Below are positions 8,822 through 13,364 of a stretch of 43,532 nucleotides of DNA, piece after piece. The notes beneath the pieces are model-generated. The model was not told the origin of the DNA and ran no database searches. It saw only the letters and a list, made by a program, of their open reading frames with translations. The position numbers were made by a program, and so were the translations under genes. The stretch covers positions 1 to 43,532 of the forward strand of contig FZLR01000017.1 in NCBI GenBank assembly GCA_900197615.1, given 5' to 3'. This DNA comes from Rhodospirillaceae bacterium Spongia-Bin9. Its GTDB lineage: Bacteria > Pseudomonadota > Alphaproteobacteria > Bin65. How positions within the stretch are numbered: position 1 is the first letter of the stretch; each line of letters opens with the position of its first letter.

Positions 8822-9817
8822 ATGGCAGGTTTGTCGGTGTCTGCATCGGACTGGAAGCCCTCGGCGGAGCAGGAAGCGGTCTGGCCGGAGGTTTCCGGCA
8901 ACGCCATCAACGGGCTGGGCGAAGAGGCGTTCGGCCCACCGCGGCCGGTGTTCTGGCGCGACGACGGCCATTCGATCGAACATACCGGCGTCCTGCGCTT
9001 TTTCTACGACCGCTACCGCGACAACGGGAATATCCGCGAAGCGCGGAAATACCGCCGACGCGCAGCGGAATTTGCCGACTGCCCGGTCGCGCCGTCACGG
9101 GCGTCCGAGCCGGCGGACGGCTGGAGCGCCGCCGTCAGGCAGGCCGCGCTGGAGGCCGGCGCCGACGATGCCGGCATCTGCGAATTCCGGGAGTCGTGGA
9201 CCTACACCGACCGCCCCCGGCCGGCCGGGCGCTGGGTCGTCGTCATGGCGTTTGCGCACGAATACGACCGGCTCAACACCGCGCCCCACGAGGACGCCTA
9301 TATCGAGGTCATGGTGCAATACGGCCGGGCCGGGATTGCCGCCAAGCGCCTCGCCAACTGGATCCGCGAGCGCGGCAGTCCCGCCGAAGCGAAGACCGGC
9401 CCGATGACCGAGGACGTGCTGATGATCCCGGCGGCGATCGAGGCCGGGCTGGGCGAACTGGGCAAGCACGGCTCGATGATCCACCGCCGCTTCGGCTCCA
9501 ATTTCCGGCTCTCCATGGTCACGACCGACCTGCCGCTGGAACCCGACGCGCCGGATGCGTTCGGCGCCGACCTGTTCTGCCAGAGCTGCCAGGTGTGCAC
9601 CCGGGCCTGCCCGCCGGACGCCATCGCGCGCGAGAAGCAGACGGTTCGGGGCACGAAGAAATGGTATGTCGATTTCGACAAGTGCCTGCCCTATTTCGTC
9701 GAGAACGAAACCTGCGGCATCTGCCTCGCCGTCTGCCCGTGGAGCCGGCCGGGGATCGCTGACAACCTGGTTACCAAAATGGCGCGGCGCTTGCCGCTAG
9801 CGCCGGAGAGCCCCTAG
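8822..9817 (+). CDS. Double [4Fe-4S] protein of the QueG/reductive dehalogenase type
   Basis: The 331-residue protein has two C-terminal iron-sulfur motifs: Cys 253, 256, 259 and 263 (CQSCQVCTRAC), and Cys 288, 298, 301 and 305 (ending CGICLAVCPWS). The segment GLGELGKHGSMIHRRFGSNF, followed by VTTDLPL, is characteristic of reductive dehalogenases and the related epoxyqueuosine reductases, which use cobalamin. No twin-arginine signal is present, so it should be cytoplasmic. The substrate is unknown. The open frame begins at a TTG at 8741; the ATG at 8822 is chosen because AGGAAG lies upstream (8804-8809). No membrane-anchor partner gene is adjacent. Confidence 0.72.
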   Translation: MAGLSVSASDWKPSAEQEAVWPEVSGNAINGLGEEAFGPPRPVFWRDDGHSIEHTGVLRFFYDRYRDNGNIREARKYRRRAAEFADCPVAPSRASEPADGWSAAVRQAALEAGADDAGICEFRESWTYTDRPRPAGRWVVVMAFAHEYDRLNTAPHEDAYIEVMVQYGRAGIAAKRLANWIRERGSPAEAKTGPMTEDVLMIPAAIEAGLGELGKHGSMIHRRFGSNFRLSMVTTDLPLEPDAPDAFGADLFCQSCQVCTRACPPDAIAREKQTVRGTKKWYVDFDKCLPYFVENETCGICLAVCPWSRPGIADNLVTKMARRLPLAPESP

Positions 9818-9914: not shown

Positions 9915-10973
9915 ATGAAGAAGTCCACCCGCAGCATTGTCTTGAGCATCGCCGGCGCTGCTACAGTCCTGGCGTTCGGCGTGACGTCCATTTGGGCGCC
10001 GGCGCAGGCCGCCGAGGTCAACGGCCCGAAACTGACCTGGAACTATTCGGTCTGGGGTAAGAAGCGCGCCTTTACAGCCGGCATCGAGAAGCTGTCCGCC
10101 CTGCTGGCTGCAAAAACCGGCGGCAACTGGACGCTCAAGATCCACTATGGCGCAGCGCTCTCCAAGTCGCGCGAGAATCTGGACGGGCTGAAGATCGGCG
10201 CGTTCGAAGGGGCGATGTTCTGCAACTTCTACCACCCGAAGAAGAACCCGGCCTTGATGGCGCTGACCCTGCCCTTCCTGCCGATGGCGACGTGGGAGGA
10301 AAACCGCAAGGTCCGCGAGGCGGTCTACGCCCATCCGGCGGTCGGCAAGCAGCTCGCGCGCTGGAACGCCATGATCTACACCTCGTCCTTCCTGCCGCAG
10401 TATGAGCTGCTCGGCAAAGGCAAGCCGCCGGTCGCGCTCGCCGACTGGAAGGGCATGACGGTCCGGGCCGGCGGCGGCCTCGGCCGGGCGATGAAGGTGC
10501 TGGGCGCGACCCCGACGACGCCGACGGCGACCGAGGTCTATACCGGCATGCAGCAGGGCACGATGCAGGCGGCTTCCTTCCCCTTCACCTACGCCCATGT
10601 CGCTTACAAGATCCACGAACTGGCCGACTGGTACACCGCCAACCTGTCGCCCGGCACGTCGGACTGCCCGCTGACCTTCGCGATCGGCGCCTACAAGAAG
10701 CTGCCGGCGCAATACAAGAAACTGCTGGAAGACTCGAAGGAAGCGGTCATCGCGGCCCAGATCGACGCCTACAAGAAAGCGGACAAGAAAAATCTGCCGA
10801 TGCTGAAGAAGAAGCTGAAGGAAGTCCGCTATACGGACGCGCAGATTGCGGCCTTCCGCAAGGCGGGCGGCCGGCCGGTGATCGAAGCCTGGATCGAGGA
10901 GAACCAGGGCAAGTTCGACGCCCGCGGCCTCGTGAAGTCCATGTTCGCCGCCGTCGGCAAGACATACGAATAG
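9915..10973 (+). CDS. dctP: TRAP transporter substrate-binding protein
   Basis: This is the periplasmic solute receptor of a tripartite ATP-independent transporter. The 352-residue protein starts with a clear signal peptide, likely cleaved after residue 32 (APAQA-AE), and has the DctP-type fold signatures KIGAFEGAMFCNFYHPKKNP, a G-M-T-V-R-AGGG strand with the conserved Arg, and YTGMQQGTMQAASFPFTYA. A strong ribosome-binding site AAGGAGG at 9901-9907 fixes the ATG at 9915 rather than 9867. The ligand cannot be read from the sequence; organic acids are the usual class. A hairpin separates it from the permease genes. Confidence 0.93.
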   Translation: MKKSTRSIVLSIAGAATVLAFGVTSIWAPAQAAEVNGPKLTWNYSVWGKKRAFTAGIEKLSALLAAKTGGNWTLKIHYGAALSKSRENLDGLKIGAFEGAMFCNFYHPKKNPALMALTLPFLPMATWEENRKVREAVYAHPAVGKQLARWNAMIYTSSFLPQYELLGKGKPPVALADWKGMTVRAGGGLGRAMKVLGATPTTPTATEVYTGMQQGTMQAASFPFTYAHVAYKIHELADWYTANLSPGTSDCPLTFAIGAYKKLPAQYKKLLEDSKEAVIAAQIDAYKKADKKNLPMLKKKLKEVRYTDAQIAAFRKAGGRPVIEAWIEENQGKFDARGLVKSMFAAVGKTYE

Positions 10974-11052: not shown

Positions 11053-11676
11053 ATGATCGGGGACGCGCCGGAATTCGGCCGCGCGCCGCCGGACGACCTG
11101 CTCGGCCGCGCGGTCTGGCGGGCCGACCGCCTGCTGGCGCCGCTTGAATTGGTCTGCACGCTGATCGGCGGCGTGCTGGTGTTCGGCCTGATGATCCTGG
11201 GCATGATCCAGATCGTGCTGCGCAATCTCTTCGGCGCGCCGATCTTCGGCTATATCGATATCGTCGAGTTCGGCATGATCGGCTTCGCCGTCTTCGGCAT
11301 CGCCTGGGTCCAGCGCCTGGGCGGCCATGTCCGGATGGAGTTGCTGCTCGGTCGCCTGAAGGGCCGCGCCATGTGGCTCGCCGAGATGGCCGGCGTGCTC
11401 ATCGGCATATTCATCGTCGCGATCCTGATTCCCTATTCCTACCAGCATTTCGGCCGGGCCTGGGAACTGGGCGACAGCACCATCGACATCGAACTGGTGA
11501 CCTGGCCGGGCAAACTGGCGGTGCCGATTTTCCTCTGCTTGCTGCTGGTCCGCTTCGCCGTGCAGTTCTTTGCCTATCTGCGCCTGTTCCTGAATCCGGC
11601 GCTGGCGCCGGTCGGCGCGCCGCACATCAAGACGGTCGAGGAACTCGCCAAGGACGAGATCGAGGGCACTGCCTGA
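11053..11676 (+). CDS. dctQ: TRAP transporter small permease subunit
   Basis: The 207-residue protein has about four membrane segments and matches the DctQ family, with VLRNLFGAPIFGYIDIVEFG, the following WVQRLGGHVRMELL and the C-terminal LFLNPALAPVGAP. DctQ connects the binding protein to the large permease in the inner membrane. Its TGA (11674-11676) overlaps the dctM ATG by one base, so translation is probably coupled. Confidence 0.93.
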   Translation: MIGDAPEFGRAPPDDLLGRAVWRADRLLAPLELVCTLIGGVLVFGLMILGMIQIVLRNLFGAPIFGYIDIVEFGMIGFAVFGIAWVQRLGGHVRMELLLGRLKGRAMWLAEMAGVLIGIFIVAILIPYSYQHFGRAWELGDSTIDIELVTWPGKLAVPIFLCLLLVRFAVQFFAYLRLFLNPALAPVGAPHIKTVEELAKDEIEGTA

Positions 11677-13034
11677 TGCTGGGCCTGGAGCCGTTCAACA
11701 CCGGCATCGTCGCGGTCGTCTTCCTGATCGTCCTGGTGGTGCTGGGCGTCCGGGTTTTCGTTGCGGCGGCGCTGACCGGCTTCCTCGGCCTGCTGGAGTT
11801 GCGCGGCTGGAACGTGGCGGCGGCGATCTCGGGGACTATTCCGCATTCCAAGACGATCACCTATCCGCTGTCCGTCCTGCCGCTGTTCATCCTGATCGGC
11901 TTCCTCGCCTTCTATGCCGGCCTGACCGGCCGGCTGTTCGAGGCGGCGCGGCGCTGGGTCGGCTGGGTGCCGGGCGGCCTCGCCGTGGCGACTGTGTTCG
12001 CCACCGCCGGTTTCGCCGCCGTCTCCGGCGCGTCGACCGCAACCGCCGCCGTGTTCTCCCGGGTCGCGATTCCCGACATGCTGAAGAACGGCTACGACCG
12101 CAAGCTGGCGGCCGGCGTCGTCGCGGCGGGCGGCACGCTGGCCTCGCTGATCCCGCCCTCGGCCATCCTGGTGATCTACGCGATCATCGTCGAGGAATCG
12201 GTCGGCAAGCTGCTGCTCGGCGGCTTCCTGCCGGGCCTGGTCTCGGCGCTGATCTATGCCGCGCTGATTATCGGCATGTGCCTGTGGAAGCCCCAGCTCG
12301 GCCGGCCGATCGCCGGGTTCACCCTGCGCGAGAAGCTGGCGACGGTGCCGGGCATCCTGCCCATCTTCGCCGTCGTCCTGGTGATATTCGGCGCGATCTA
12401 CACCGGCACGGCGACGCCCACGGAGGCGGCGGCGCTCGGCGCGGCCATCGTGTTCGCGATCTACGTGTTCGAAGCGTTCCGGCAGAAGGCCGTCGGCGAC
12501 ATGGCCGGCCGGCTGAAAGAGGCGCTGCTCGAGACCGCCAAGCTGACGGCGATGATCTTCACCCTGATCTGGGGCGTTTTCCTGTTCGTGCGCTTCCTCG
12601 GCTTCGCCGGCCTGCCGGCCTCCTTCGCCGGCTGGGTGACGACGCTCGACATGCCGCCCATCGTCATCATGATCTGCATCCTGCTGGCCTATGCCGTCCT
12701 GGGCATGTTCATGGACGCGATCGGCATGCTGATCCTCACCCTGCCGGTGGTGTTCCCGGCGGTCGAGGCGCTGGGCTACCACCCGGTCTGGTTCGGGATC
12801 ATCGTCGTCAAGATGGCGGAGATTTGCCTGATTACCCCGCCCATCGGGCTCAACTGTTTCGTCGTCGCCGGGGTCAGCCGCGACCTGCAGGACGCCGAGG
12901 GCCGCTCGCTCGAAGTGCCGTTGCAGGATGTGTTCCGCGGCATCGGCCCCTTCTTCGTCGCCGACGTCGCAACCGTCGCCGTGCTGCTGGCCTTCCCCGG
13001 AATCGTGCTTTGGCTGCCGAGCCTGATGGGGTAA
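11676..13034 (+). CDS. dctM: TRAP transporter large permease subunit
   Basis: The 452-residue, very hydrophobic protein matches DctM, the ion-driven channel subunit. Signatures include GASTATAAVFSRVAIPDM, GGTLASLIPPSAILVIYA, and near the C-terminus KMAEICLITPPIGLNCFV. The open frame extends back to 11373 inside dctQ, but the ATG at 11676 overlapping the dctQ stop gives the usual N-terminus. It completes the dctP-dctQ-dctM operon. Confidence 0.95.
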   Translation: MLGLEPFNTGIVAVVFLIVLVVLGVRVFVAAALTGFLGLLELRGWNVAAAISGTIPHSKTITYPLSVLPLFILIGFLAFYAGLTGRLFEAARRWVGWVPGGLAVATVFATAGFAAVSGASTATAAVFSRVAIPDMLKNGYDRKLAAGVVAAGGTLASLIPPSAILVIYAIIVEESVGKLLLGGFLPGLVSALIYAALIIGMCLWKPQLGRPIAGFTLREKLATVPGILPIFAVVLVIFGAIYTGTATPTEAAALGAAIVFAIYVFEAFRQKAVGDMAGRLKEALLETAKLTAMIFTLIWGVFLFVRFLGFAGLPASFAGWVTTLDMPPIVIMICILLAYAVLGMFMDAIGMLILTLPVVFPAVEALGYHPVWFGIIVVKMAEICLITPPIGLNCFVVAGVSRDLQDAEGRSLEVPLQDVFRGIGPFFVADVATVAVLLAFPGIVLWLPSLMG

Positions 13035-13073: not shown

Positions 13074-13364
13074 ATGGCTAAAGGATATTGGGTTTCCTGC
13101 TACCGCGAGGTGAAGGATCCGGACGCGCTGGCCTCCTATGCCGAGCTGGCCGGGCCGGCAGTCCTGCAACATGGCGGCCGTTTCCTCGCCCGCGGCGGCA
13201 AGGTGACGCCTTATGAGGCCGGCCTCGCCAACCGCACGGTGGTGATCGAGTTCGATAGCTACGAACAGGCCGTCGCCGCGCGCGAGAGCGACGCCTACGC
13301 CGCCGCGCTCGAACGGCTCGAAGGCGCCGTGGTGCGGGATTTCAGAGTGCTTGAAGGGGTCTGA
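13074..13364 (+). CDS. DUF1330 family protein
   Basis: The 96-residue protein matches DUF1330, small ferredoxin-like alpha-beta proteins: it has GYWVSCYREVKDPDALASYA, then LARGGKVTPYEAG, and VVIEFDSYEQAVAARESDAY. Molecular function is unknown for the family. It lies 39 bases after dctM and may be co-transcribed with the TRAP genes, but nothing in the sequence shows a functional tie. Confidence 0.85.
   Translation: MAKGYWVSCYREVKDPDALASYAELAGPAVLQHGGRFLARGGKVTPYEAGLANRTVVIEFDSYEQAVAARESDAYAAALERLEGAVVRDFRVLEGV

Follow-up and report, generated by a model that had tools for sequence, protein, structure and literature searches.

The window, a stretch of 43,532 nucleotides, carries a real gene at 8822–9817 on the + strand, where an open reading frame (ORF) with its ATG at 8822 translates into 331 amino acids. 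A GapR-type gene lies upstream, and genes for the TRAP transporter subunits DctP, DctQ and DctM and for a DUF1330 protein lie downstream, all on the + strand. The relevant features are as follows.

8822–9817, + strand: compact reductive-dehalogenase-type iron-sulfur (probably corrinoid) enzyme, 331 amino acids (ORF, 54-member family, AlphaFold model and PDB comparison)
8918–9106, + strand: predicted N-terminal unit, residues 33–95, aligned with the N-terminal unit of PceA and NpRdhA and outside the QueG-aligned part
9320–9322, + strand: Y167, equivalent of PceA Y246 and NpRdhA Y426, the proposed proton donor (HMMER alignments, 53/54 members)
9506–9508, + strand: R229, equivalent of PceA R305 and NpRdhA K488 (HMMER alignments, 54/54 members)
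9578–9613, + strand: FeS1 motif CX2CX2CX3CP, residues 253–264 (54/54 family members)
9683–9739, + strand: FeS2 region, C288 plus CX2CX3CP at residues 298–306 (motif pattern and family alignment)
9915–10973, + strand: TRAP solute-binding subunit DctP (PF03480); the ORF runs from 9867, but translation more likely starts at the ATG at 9915, which follows AAGGAGG
11053–11676, + strand: TRAP small permease DctQ (PF04290)
11673–13034, + strand: TRAP large permease DctM (PF06808); the scanned stretch begins one codon before the ATG at 11676
13074–13364, + strand: DUF1330 protein (PF07045), last of the genus-shared run

Protein family and sequence motifs

The gene appears to be under selective constraint, with dN of 0.060–0.073 vs dS of 0.29–0.44 against four same-genus orthologues (dN/dS approximately 0.17–0.22 by a simple count). 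Identity to the orthologues of six other same-genus genomes is 87–91% in five and 75% in one. For the wider family, 64 matches covering at least 280 query residues were reduced to 54 distinct proteins by removing identical rows and any containing N. The distribution is patchy and accessory: at E ≤ 1e-60, members occur in 19 of the 289 genomes of the class (the window's own included) and 12 of 223 genera, and Gammaproteobacteria-titled records also contain them. Family members in G205:C1, G294:C89 and G091:C32 have one in-frame stop each and are perhaps pseudogenes or assembly errors.

The original prediction described two cysteine motifs for [4Fe-4S] clusters and the GELGKHG and TTDLPL blocks, all of which are present. 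FeS1 is found in all 54 members and the CX2CX3CP motif of FeS2 in 53; C288, upstream of FeS2, is invariant, and the two blocks occupy residues 211–217 and 234–239. The exception for FeS2 (L023) lacks the last cysteine of the motif and is possibly a decayed or changed copy.

The absence of an export signal, an anchor, a vestigial second core and a reductase domain was computed directly. By a simple pattern, no TAT-like motif occurs in the first 60 residues of any of the 54 members, and no RdhB-anchor-like gene is among those adjoining the enzyme gene in the window, as had been proposed for both. The window's protein has no membrane-helix-like stretch (highest 19-residue hydropathy 1.0), and the N-terminal transmembrane helices that characterize transmembrane RdhA proteins are absent from its first 70 residues (highest 19-residue hydropathy 0.15). 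Members are 318–340 amino acids long and have a single core, without the vestigial duplicated core of catabolic RdhA proteins; double cores occur in C213 and other proteins examined. A C-terminal FMN/[2Fe-2S] reductase domain is also absent: the alignment with dehalogenases stops at model residue 309–326 of 331, and Pfam recognizes only 4Fe-4S domains in the enzyme.

The NCBIfam reductive dehalogenase profile, TIGR02486, scores the window's protein at 117 bits, below its curated cut-off of 160.35, and the QueG profile, TIGR00276, at 60 bits, below its cut-off of 200. Each profile matches all 54 members at E ≤ 1e-5, with TIGR00276 below cut-off in every one. PF13486 produced no match in the window's protein at E ≤ 1; this profile discriminates poorly, and C213, a paralogue in the same genome, passes TIGR02486 yet lacks PF13486 at E ≤ 0.01. 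A profile of the 54 members, searched against PDB sequences, matched NpRdhA at 7e-50 and two PceA entries at 7e-46 and 3e-44; QueG (2e-12 and 2e-8) ranked below an iron-sulfur subunit of formylmethanofuran dehydrogenase (3e-14).

Gene neighbourhood

The dctP gene adjoins the enzyme gene in all seven same-genus genomes. No + strand terminator-like site was detected between the two by a pattern scan, which allows, but does not prove, a single transcript; the genes may be transcribed as one unit. The DUF1330 gene is present in four of the five named genus loci (L037, L038, L039 and L047; not L040). At L038:7060-9507, a second, diverged DctP gene (74% vs 86% identity to that of the window) sits between the enzyme gene and the remaining TRAP operon. 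Outside the genus, TRAP linkage was seen only in L049, where a member with 46% identity stands in the order acyl-CoA ligase, enzyme gene, DctP and then a DctM match. These adjacency counts were obtained by searching 77 loci, a number of which have short flanks, with selected queries in tblastn, and the neighbour survey drew on 30 proteins hand-picked mostly from 369 called ORFs. On that basis, no neighbour is common to the entire family. In the window, no electron-donor gene adjoins the enzyme gene.

An acyl-CoA ligase gene lies within approximately 1 kb in five of the 33 named loci outside the genus (L042, L048, L049, L051 and L052; the 33 are L041–L074 minus L047, some with short flanks); counting all loci, such genes adjoin or are near members in L015/L042 (one genome), L020, L021, L048, L049, L051 and L052. 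Many neighbours outside the genus seem to have no bearing on halo-acid catabolism, among them argininosuccinate synthase (L050), AnmK (L056), a cation-efflux protein (L041) and the two RNA-modification-type neighbours in L058 described below. A 4-hydroxybenzoate 3-monooxygenase gene (TIGR02360, above cut-off) follows the member in L044 and is a suggestive hint to the substrate; L017 shows the same monooxygenase at the same spacing with 100% identity, so the two were counted once. A Rieske oxygenase gene is located upstream in three of the seven same-genus genomes (G001–G003). It most resembles monooxygenases of the glycine-betaine/carnitine type and, after these, aromatic dioxygenases, and it is therefore weak evidence for an aromatic substrate; the adjoining 107-amino-acid ORF had no NCBIfam match at E ≤ 1e-20. 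A search for the TRAP ligand through solved DctP relatives was fruitless, as the 19 listed were all distant and none was named as aromatic-binding.

Several other arrangements were observed. Tandem copies of the gene, 60% and 64% identical to that of the window, occur at L042:4200-9123 (also L015/L024, G009), flanked upstream by a cupin gene and downstream by one for an acyl-CoA ligase. In L069, L071 and L073, the member has a conserved DMFA2_C gene (dimethylformamidase-like) and a gene for a TauD-family dioxygenase as neighbours; in L065 and L066, a xanthine-dehydrogenase-like, molybdopterin-dependent enzyme (large and FAD subunits) is encoded next to it. At L058:4532-7901, a radical SAM protein of the methylthiotransferase type and a dihydrouridine synthase (Dus) flank the member, a setting reminiscent of RNA modification.

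Predicted fold, active site and relation to QueG

The AlphaFold model of the enzyme (pLDDT 92.3, pTM 0.91) was compared with solved structures using VIA-align 2. Against PceA and NpRdhA, it aligned with Z scores of 26.9–28.2 and rmsd of 2.7–3.2 over 270–292 residues, spanning model residues 32–35 to 309–326; the predicted structure is thus the corrinoid/iron-sulfur fold of these two dehalogenases over about residues 33–323. Against QueG, only the core aligned (Z 15.0–15.4, rmsd 2.5–2.7, 193–196 residues), covering residues 96–312 only. MMACHC and CblD were distant fold matches (Z 6.2–7.7). The N-terminal part had been singled out as different from QueG. Because the dehalogenase alignments start at residues 32–35 and those of QueG at 96–99, this part is, in the model, the N-terminal unit of dehalogenases, and the dehalogenase fold predicted for the protein includes this unit, as in RdhA proteins.

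The Tyr plus Arg/Lys dyad of RdhA proteins is also found, with Y167 in 53 of the 54 members and R229 in all of them. The corresponding residues are described as the Tyr246–Arg305 pair in a dehalogenase (PMC4646009) and as the proton-donor dyad Y426/K488 of NpRdhA (PMC7565698); the former, in its available text, gives QueG no equivalent of the Arg and treats the DYH motif as QueG-specific. DYH is present in 11 of 11 QueG rows and at the active site of none of the 54 members, where its letters occur elsewhere in two; the window's protein has QYG around Y167. MAFFT set another QueG tyrosine in the Y167 column, so at this position QueG was compared through the DYH search and the QueG paper rather than through the alignment column. 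The position of PceA Asn272 is Gly in 42 of 54 members (G193 in the window's protein) and that of NpRdhA R552 is Phe in all 54 (F292); the pocket would therefore be unlike that of any known enzyme. Judged from the alignments, the residues for chemistry appear to be retained and the substrate pocket rebuilt. One member, at L032:1477-2478, has Ile where the other 53 have the active-site Tyr and is possibly a decayed or changed copy.

A tree was built from 91 core sequences, with long branches present and family rows collected by similarity to the window's protein. The family and four C116-type paralogues formed one clade (97/94), and the 11 QueG rows formed their own (98/99), which excludes the window's protein. 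Eighteen dehalogenase rows, including PceA, NpRdhA and C213, C292 and C305 from the same genome, grouped weakly (83/45). An AU test did not reject the family and QueG as one clade (p 0.37). The tree supports a separate clade outside QueG and does not settle whether dehalogenases or QueG are the nearer neighbour; the predicted structure and the aligned residues point to dehalogenases as the nearer kin.

The window's genome is 95.9% complete in 316 contigs. Contig C260 ends in a separate queG fragment with DYH, cut by the contig boundary and neighboured by ORFs that resemble queF and tgt by eye; QueG scores above cut-off in each of the six other genus members. CobN (TIGR02257, 1158 bits vs a cut-off of 822) and CobB/CbiA (TIGR00379, 296 bits vs 261) are encoded in the same genome, which may be read as consistent with B12 synthesis. 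The view that the protein is not a normal QueG therefore stands on the missing DYH, the low TIGR00276 score and the separate queG, and a divergent QueG was rejected on the same grounds, the tree alone not being decisive. The proposal of a cytosolic cobalamin-dependent reductase likewise gains support from the predicted PceA/NpRdhA fold and the position outside QueG, with cobamide as the probable ligand. Of the two outcomes named beforehand as counting against it, lack of a plausible corrinoid pocket and placement within the QueG clade with a conserved catalytic Asp, neither was encountered.

Proposed activity and alternative readings

Domain organization has been used to divide reductive dehalogenases into a respiratory, a transmembrane and two catabolic subfamilies, one of the latter having a reductase domain and both a vestigial second core; the enzyme fits none of the four as set out in the available text of PMC10463259. 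Because it shows no subfamily feature and scores below the TIGR02486 cut-off, we call it a compact sister clade, probably working like a dehalogenase, rather than an RdhA of a known subfamily. A literature search, mostly of papers outside subscription, found no compact single-core clade named in the titles or abstract openings retrieved.

NpRdhA of Nitratireductor pacificus and BhbA/JtRdhA resemble the enzyme in being cytoplasmic and TAT-less, with two [4Fe-4S] motifs and a Tyr plus basic-residue dyad, and NpRdhA matches the predicted model with a Z score of 27. They differ in their vestigial second core and, often, C-terminal reductase, neither of which the enzyme has (PMC10463259, available text); at the positions of NpRdhA K488 and R552 it has Arg and Phe, respectively, and it falls in another clade. 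PceA, the respiratory tetrachloroethene dehalogenase, shares the single core, the Tyr246 and Arg305 equivalents and the predicted fold (Z 27–28), whereas the enzyme lacks a TAT signal and anchor gene, has Gly at the Asn272 position and is more than 100 residues shorter than the solved chains (331 vs 464 and 503). QueG has the core fold (Z 15), the cluster motifs and the cytoplasmic location in common with the enzyme, which is distinguished by the lack of DYH, the extra N-terminal unit and R229, in a genome with its own queG. Ros_A3X954, a TAT-less cytoplasmic debrominase of a marine alphaproteobacterium, is active on 2,6-dibromophenol (PMC13101508, which also cites the E. coli screen of Ng and Silver). 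Going by that paper's description rather than an alignment, C292 and C305 are similar to it in motifs and length; it is reported with PF13486 and a second cluster motif at 337–345, whereas the enzyme lacks PF13486 and has the motif at 298–306. The novelty of the enzyme is moderate because Ros_A3X954 is already a TAT-less marine alphaproteobacterial phenol debrominase.

The fold of the model, the two iron-sulfur motifs, the Y167/R229 pair and the within-genus TRAP linkage were computed directly, and we favour, by a narrow margin of confidence, a cytoplasmic enzyme of reductive-dehalogenase type, compact and with a single core, that would dehalogenate imported halo-organic acids, with its substrate, cofactor and electron donor assigned by analogy and context. 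Within this proposal, a dehalogenase-type corrinoid reductase is highly probable, dehalogenation is its fairly likely activity, and an imported halo-aromatic acid is put forward tentatively as the substrate. Import would fall to the co-located TRAP transporter, and the acid it carries would most likely be a halo-aromatic compound encountered in the sponge. By analogy with NpRdhA, a cellular ferredoxin or flavodoxin would feed electrons to the two [4Fe-4S] clusters, which would pass them to a base-off cobamide; the reduced cobalt would then take the halogen from the substrate held over the corrin, Y167, tuned by R229, would donate the proton, and the dehalogenated organic acid would enter catabolism.

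The sponge Aplysina aerophoba is rich in bromotyrosine compounds. The nearest named relative of the protein, 91% identical (L037), is in MPMX01, which is bin65, a Rhodospirillaceae bin of the Aplysina aerophoba metagenome (PMC5649159), and the metaproteome of this sponge was found to contain TRAP transporters annotated for chloroaromatics, the label being an annotation rather than a measured ligand (PMC6081418). If the enzyme is a dehalogenase, reductive dehalogenation would be present in relatives of sponge symbionts that encounter halogen compounds of their host. The solved dehalogenases, exported PceA and double-core NpRdhA, are larger, and a soluble version of 331 residues would offer a small chassis for mechanistic and bioremediation work.

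The main competitor is a corrinoid reductase with the dehalogenase fold that would have lost dehalogenation and instead reduce an epoxide, an ether, an activated C–O bond or a CoA-thioester group in acid catabolism. G193 and F292, which differ from the pocket residues of known dehalogenases, the acyl-CoA ligase genes at or near members in the loci listed above and the setting of the C116 paralogue, between an acyl-CoA ligase and an enoyl-CoA-hydratase-like ORF (by eye), would all suit such an enzyme. However, the dehalogenation-linked Tyr–Arg pair is kept almost throughout the family, whereas the Arg is missing from QueG, a superfamily member with different chemistry (PMC4646009, available text), and three other proteins of the genome pass the TIGR02486 cut-off; we regard this competitor as rather unlikely. 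Somewhat more speculative still is a fifth structural subfamily of corrinoid/iron-sulfur reductases, one core plus N-terminal unit, serving acid or CoA-ester catabolism in marine and sponge Proteobacteria, in which some members would use CoA thioesters as substrates or target bonds that are not carbon–halogen; if true, this would be new chemistry for the enzyme class.

Two further readings carry little weight. A non-catalytic corrinoid carrier, an MMACHC-like B12-processing protein or a plain electron carrier would accord with the distant MMACHC match (Z up to 7.7), the 4Fe-4S domains that are all Pfam finds and the rank of the formylmethanofuran dehydrogenase subunit above QueG, but the dehalogenase match is far stronger and nearly full-length, R229 is invariant and Y167 nearly so, which makes a role of this kind very improbable. 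We consider a divergent epoxyqueuosine reductase or other RNA-modification enzyme marginally less credible again: no member has DYH at the active site, the TIGR00276 score is 60 bits vs a cut-off of 200, the QueG rows are a separate clade (98/99), and a DYH-bearing queG fragment is present in the genome, as is above-cut-off QueG in the six other genus members. These outweigh the sub-threshold TIGR00276 matches in all 54 members, the QueG grouping left possible by the AU test and the neighbours of the L058 member. The proposed dehalogenase-type enzyme remains our preferred reading.

Besides the window's enzyme, the genome has eight related genes (one further row, the tenth, is another fragment of C292). 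Three score above the TIGR02486 cut-off: C213 (L003; 743 amino acids, two cores, 177 bits), C292 (L004; 420 amino acids, 177 bits) and C305 (L005; 404 amino acids, 162 bits), none with a TAT motif by eye. The C116 paralogue (L002; C116:19.4-20.4 kb) is compact, with 340 amino acids and 119 bits. With the window's enzyme, this gives five dehalogenase-type genes in one genome, so the question is directly testable. An acyl-CoA ligase gene follows C292, a prephenate-dehydrogenase-like ORF (by eye) precedes C305, and the C116 paralogue, flanked as described above, has homologues in three other genus members (L029, L030 and L031). Tandem pairs of distant RdhA/QueG-like iron-sulfur proteins occur at C156:17.8-19.9 kb (L006) and C198:16.2-18.4 kb (L008), with sizes of 381+344 and 379+328 amino acids; when aligned, they show neither the Tyr nor the Arg of dehalogenases. 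The C156 pair is preceded by a benzoate-CoA ligase family protein (TIGR02262, 500 bits vs 375), and the pairs are possibly a two-subunit reductase of aryl-CoA compounds.
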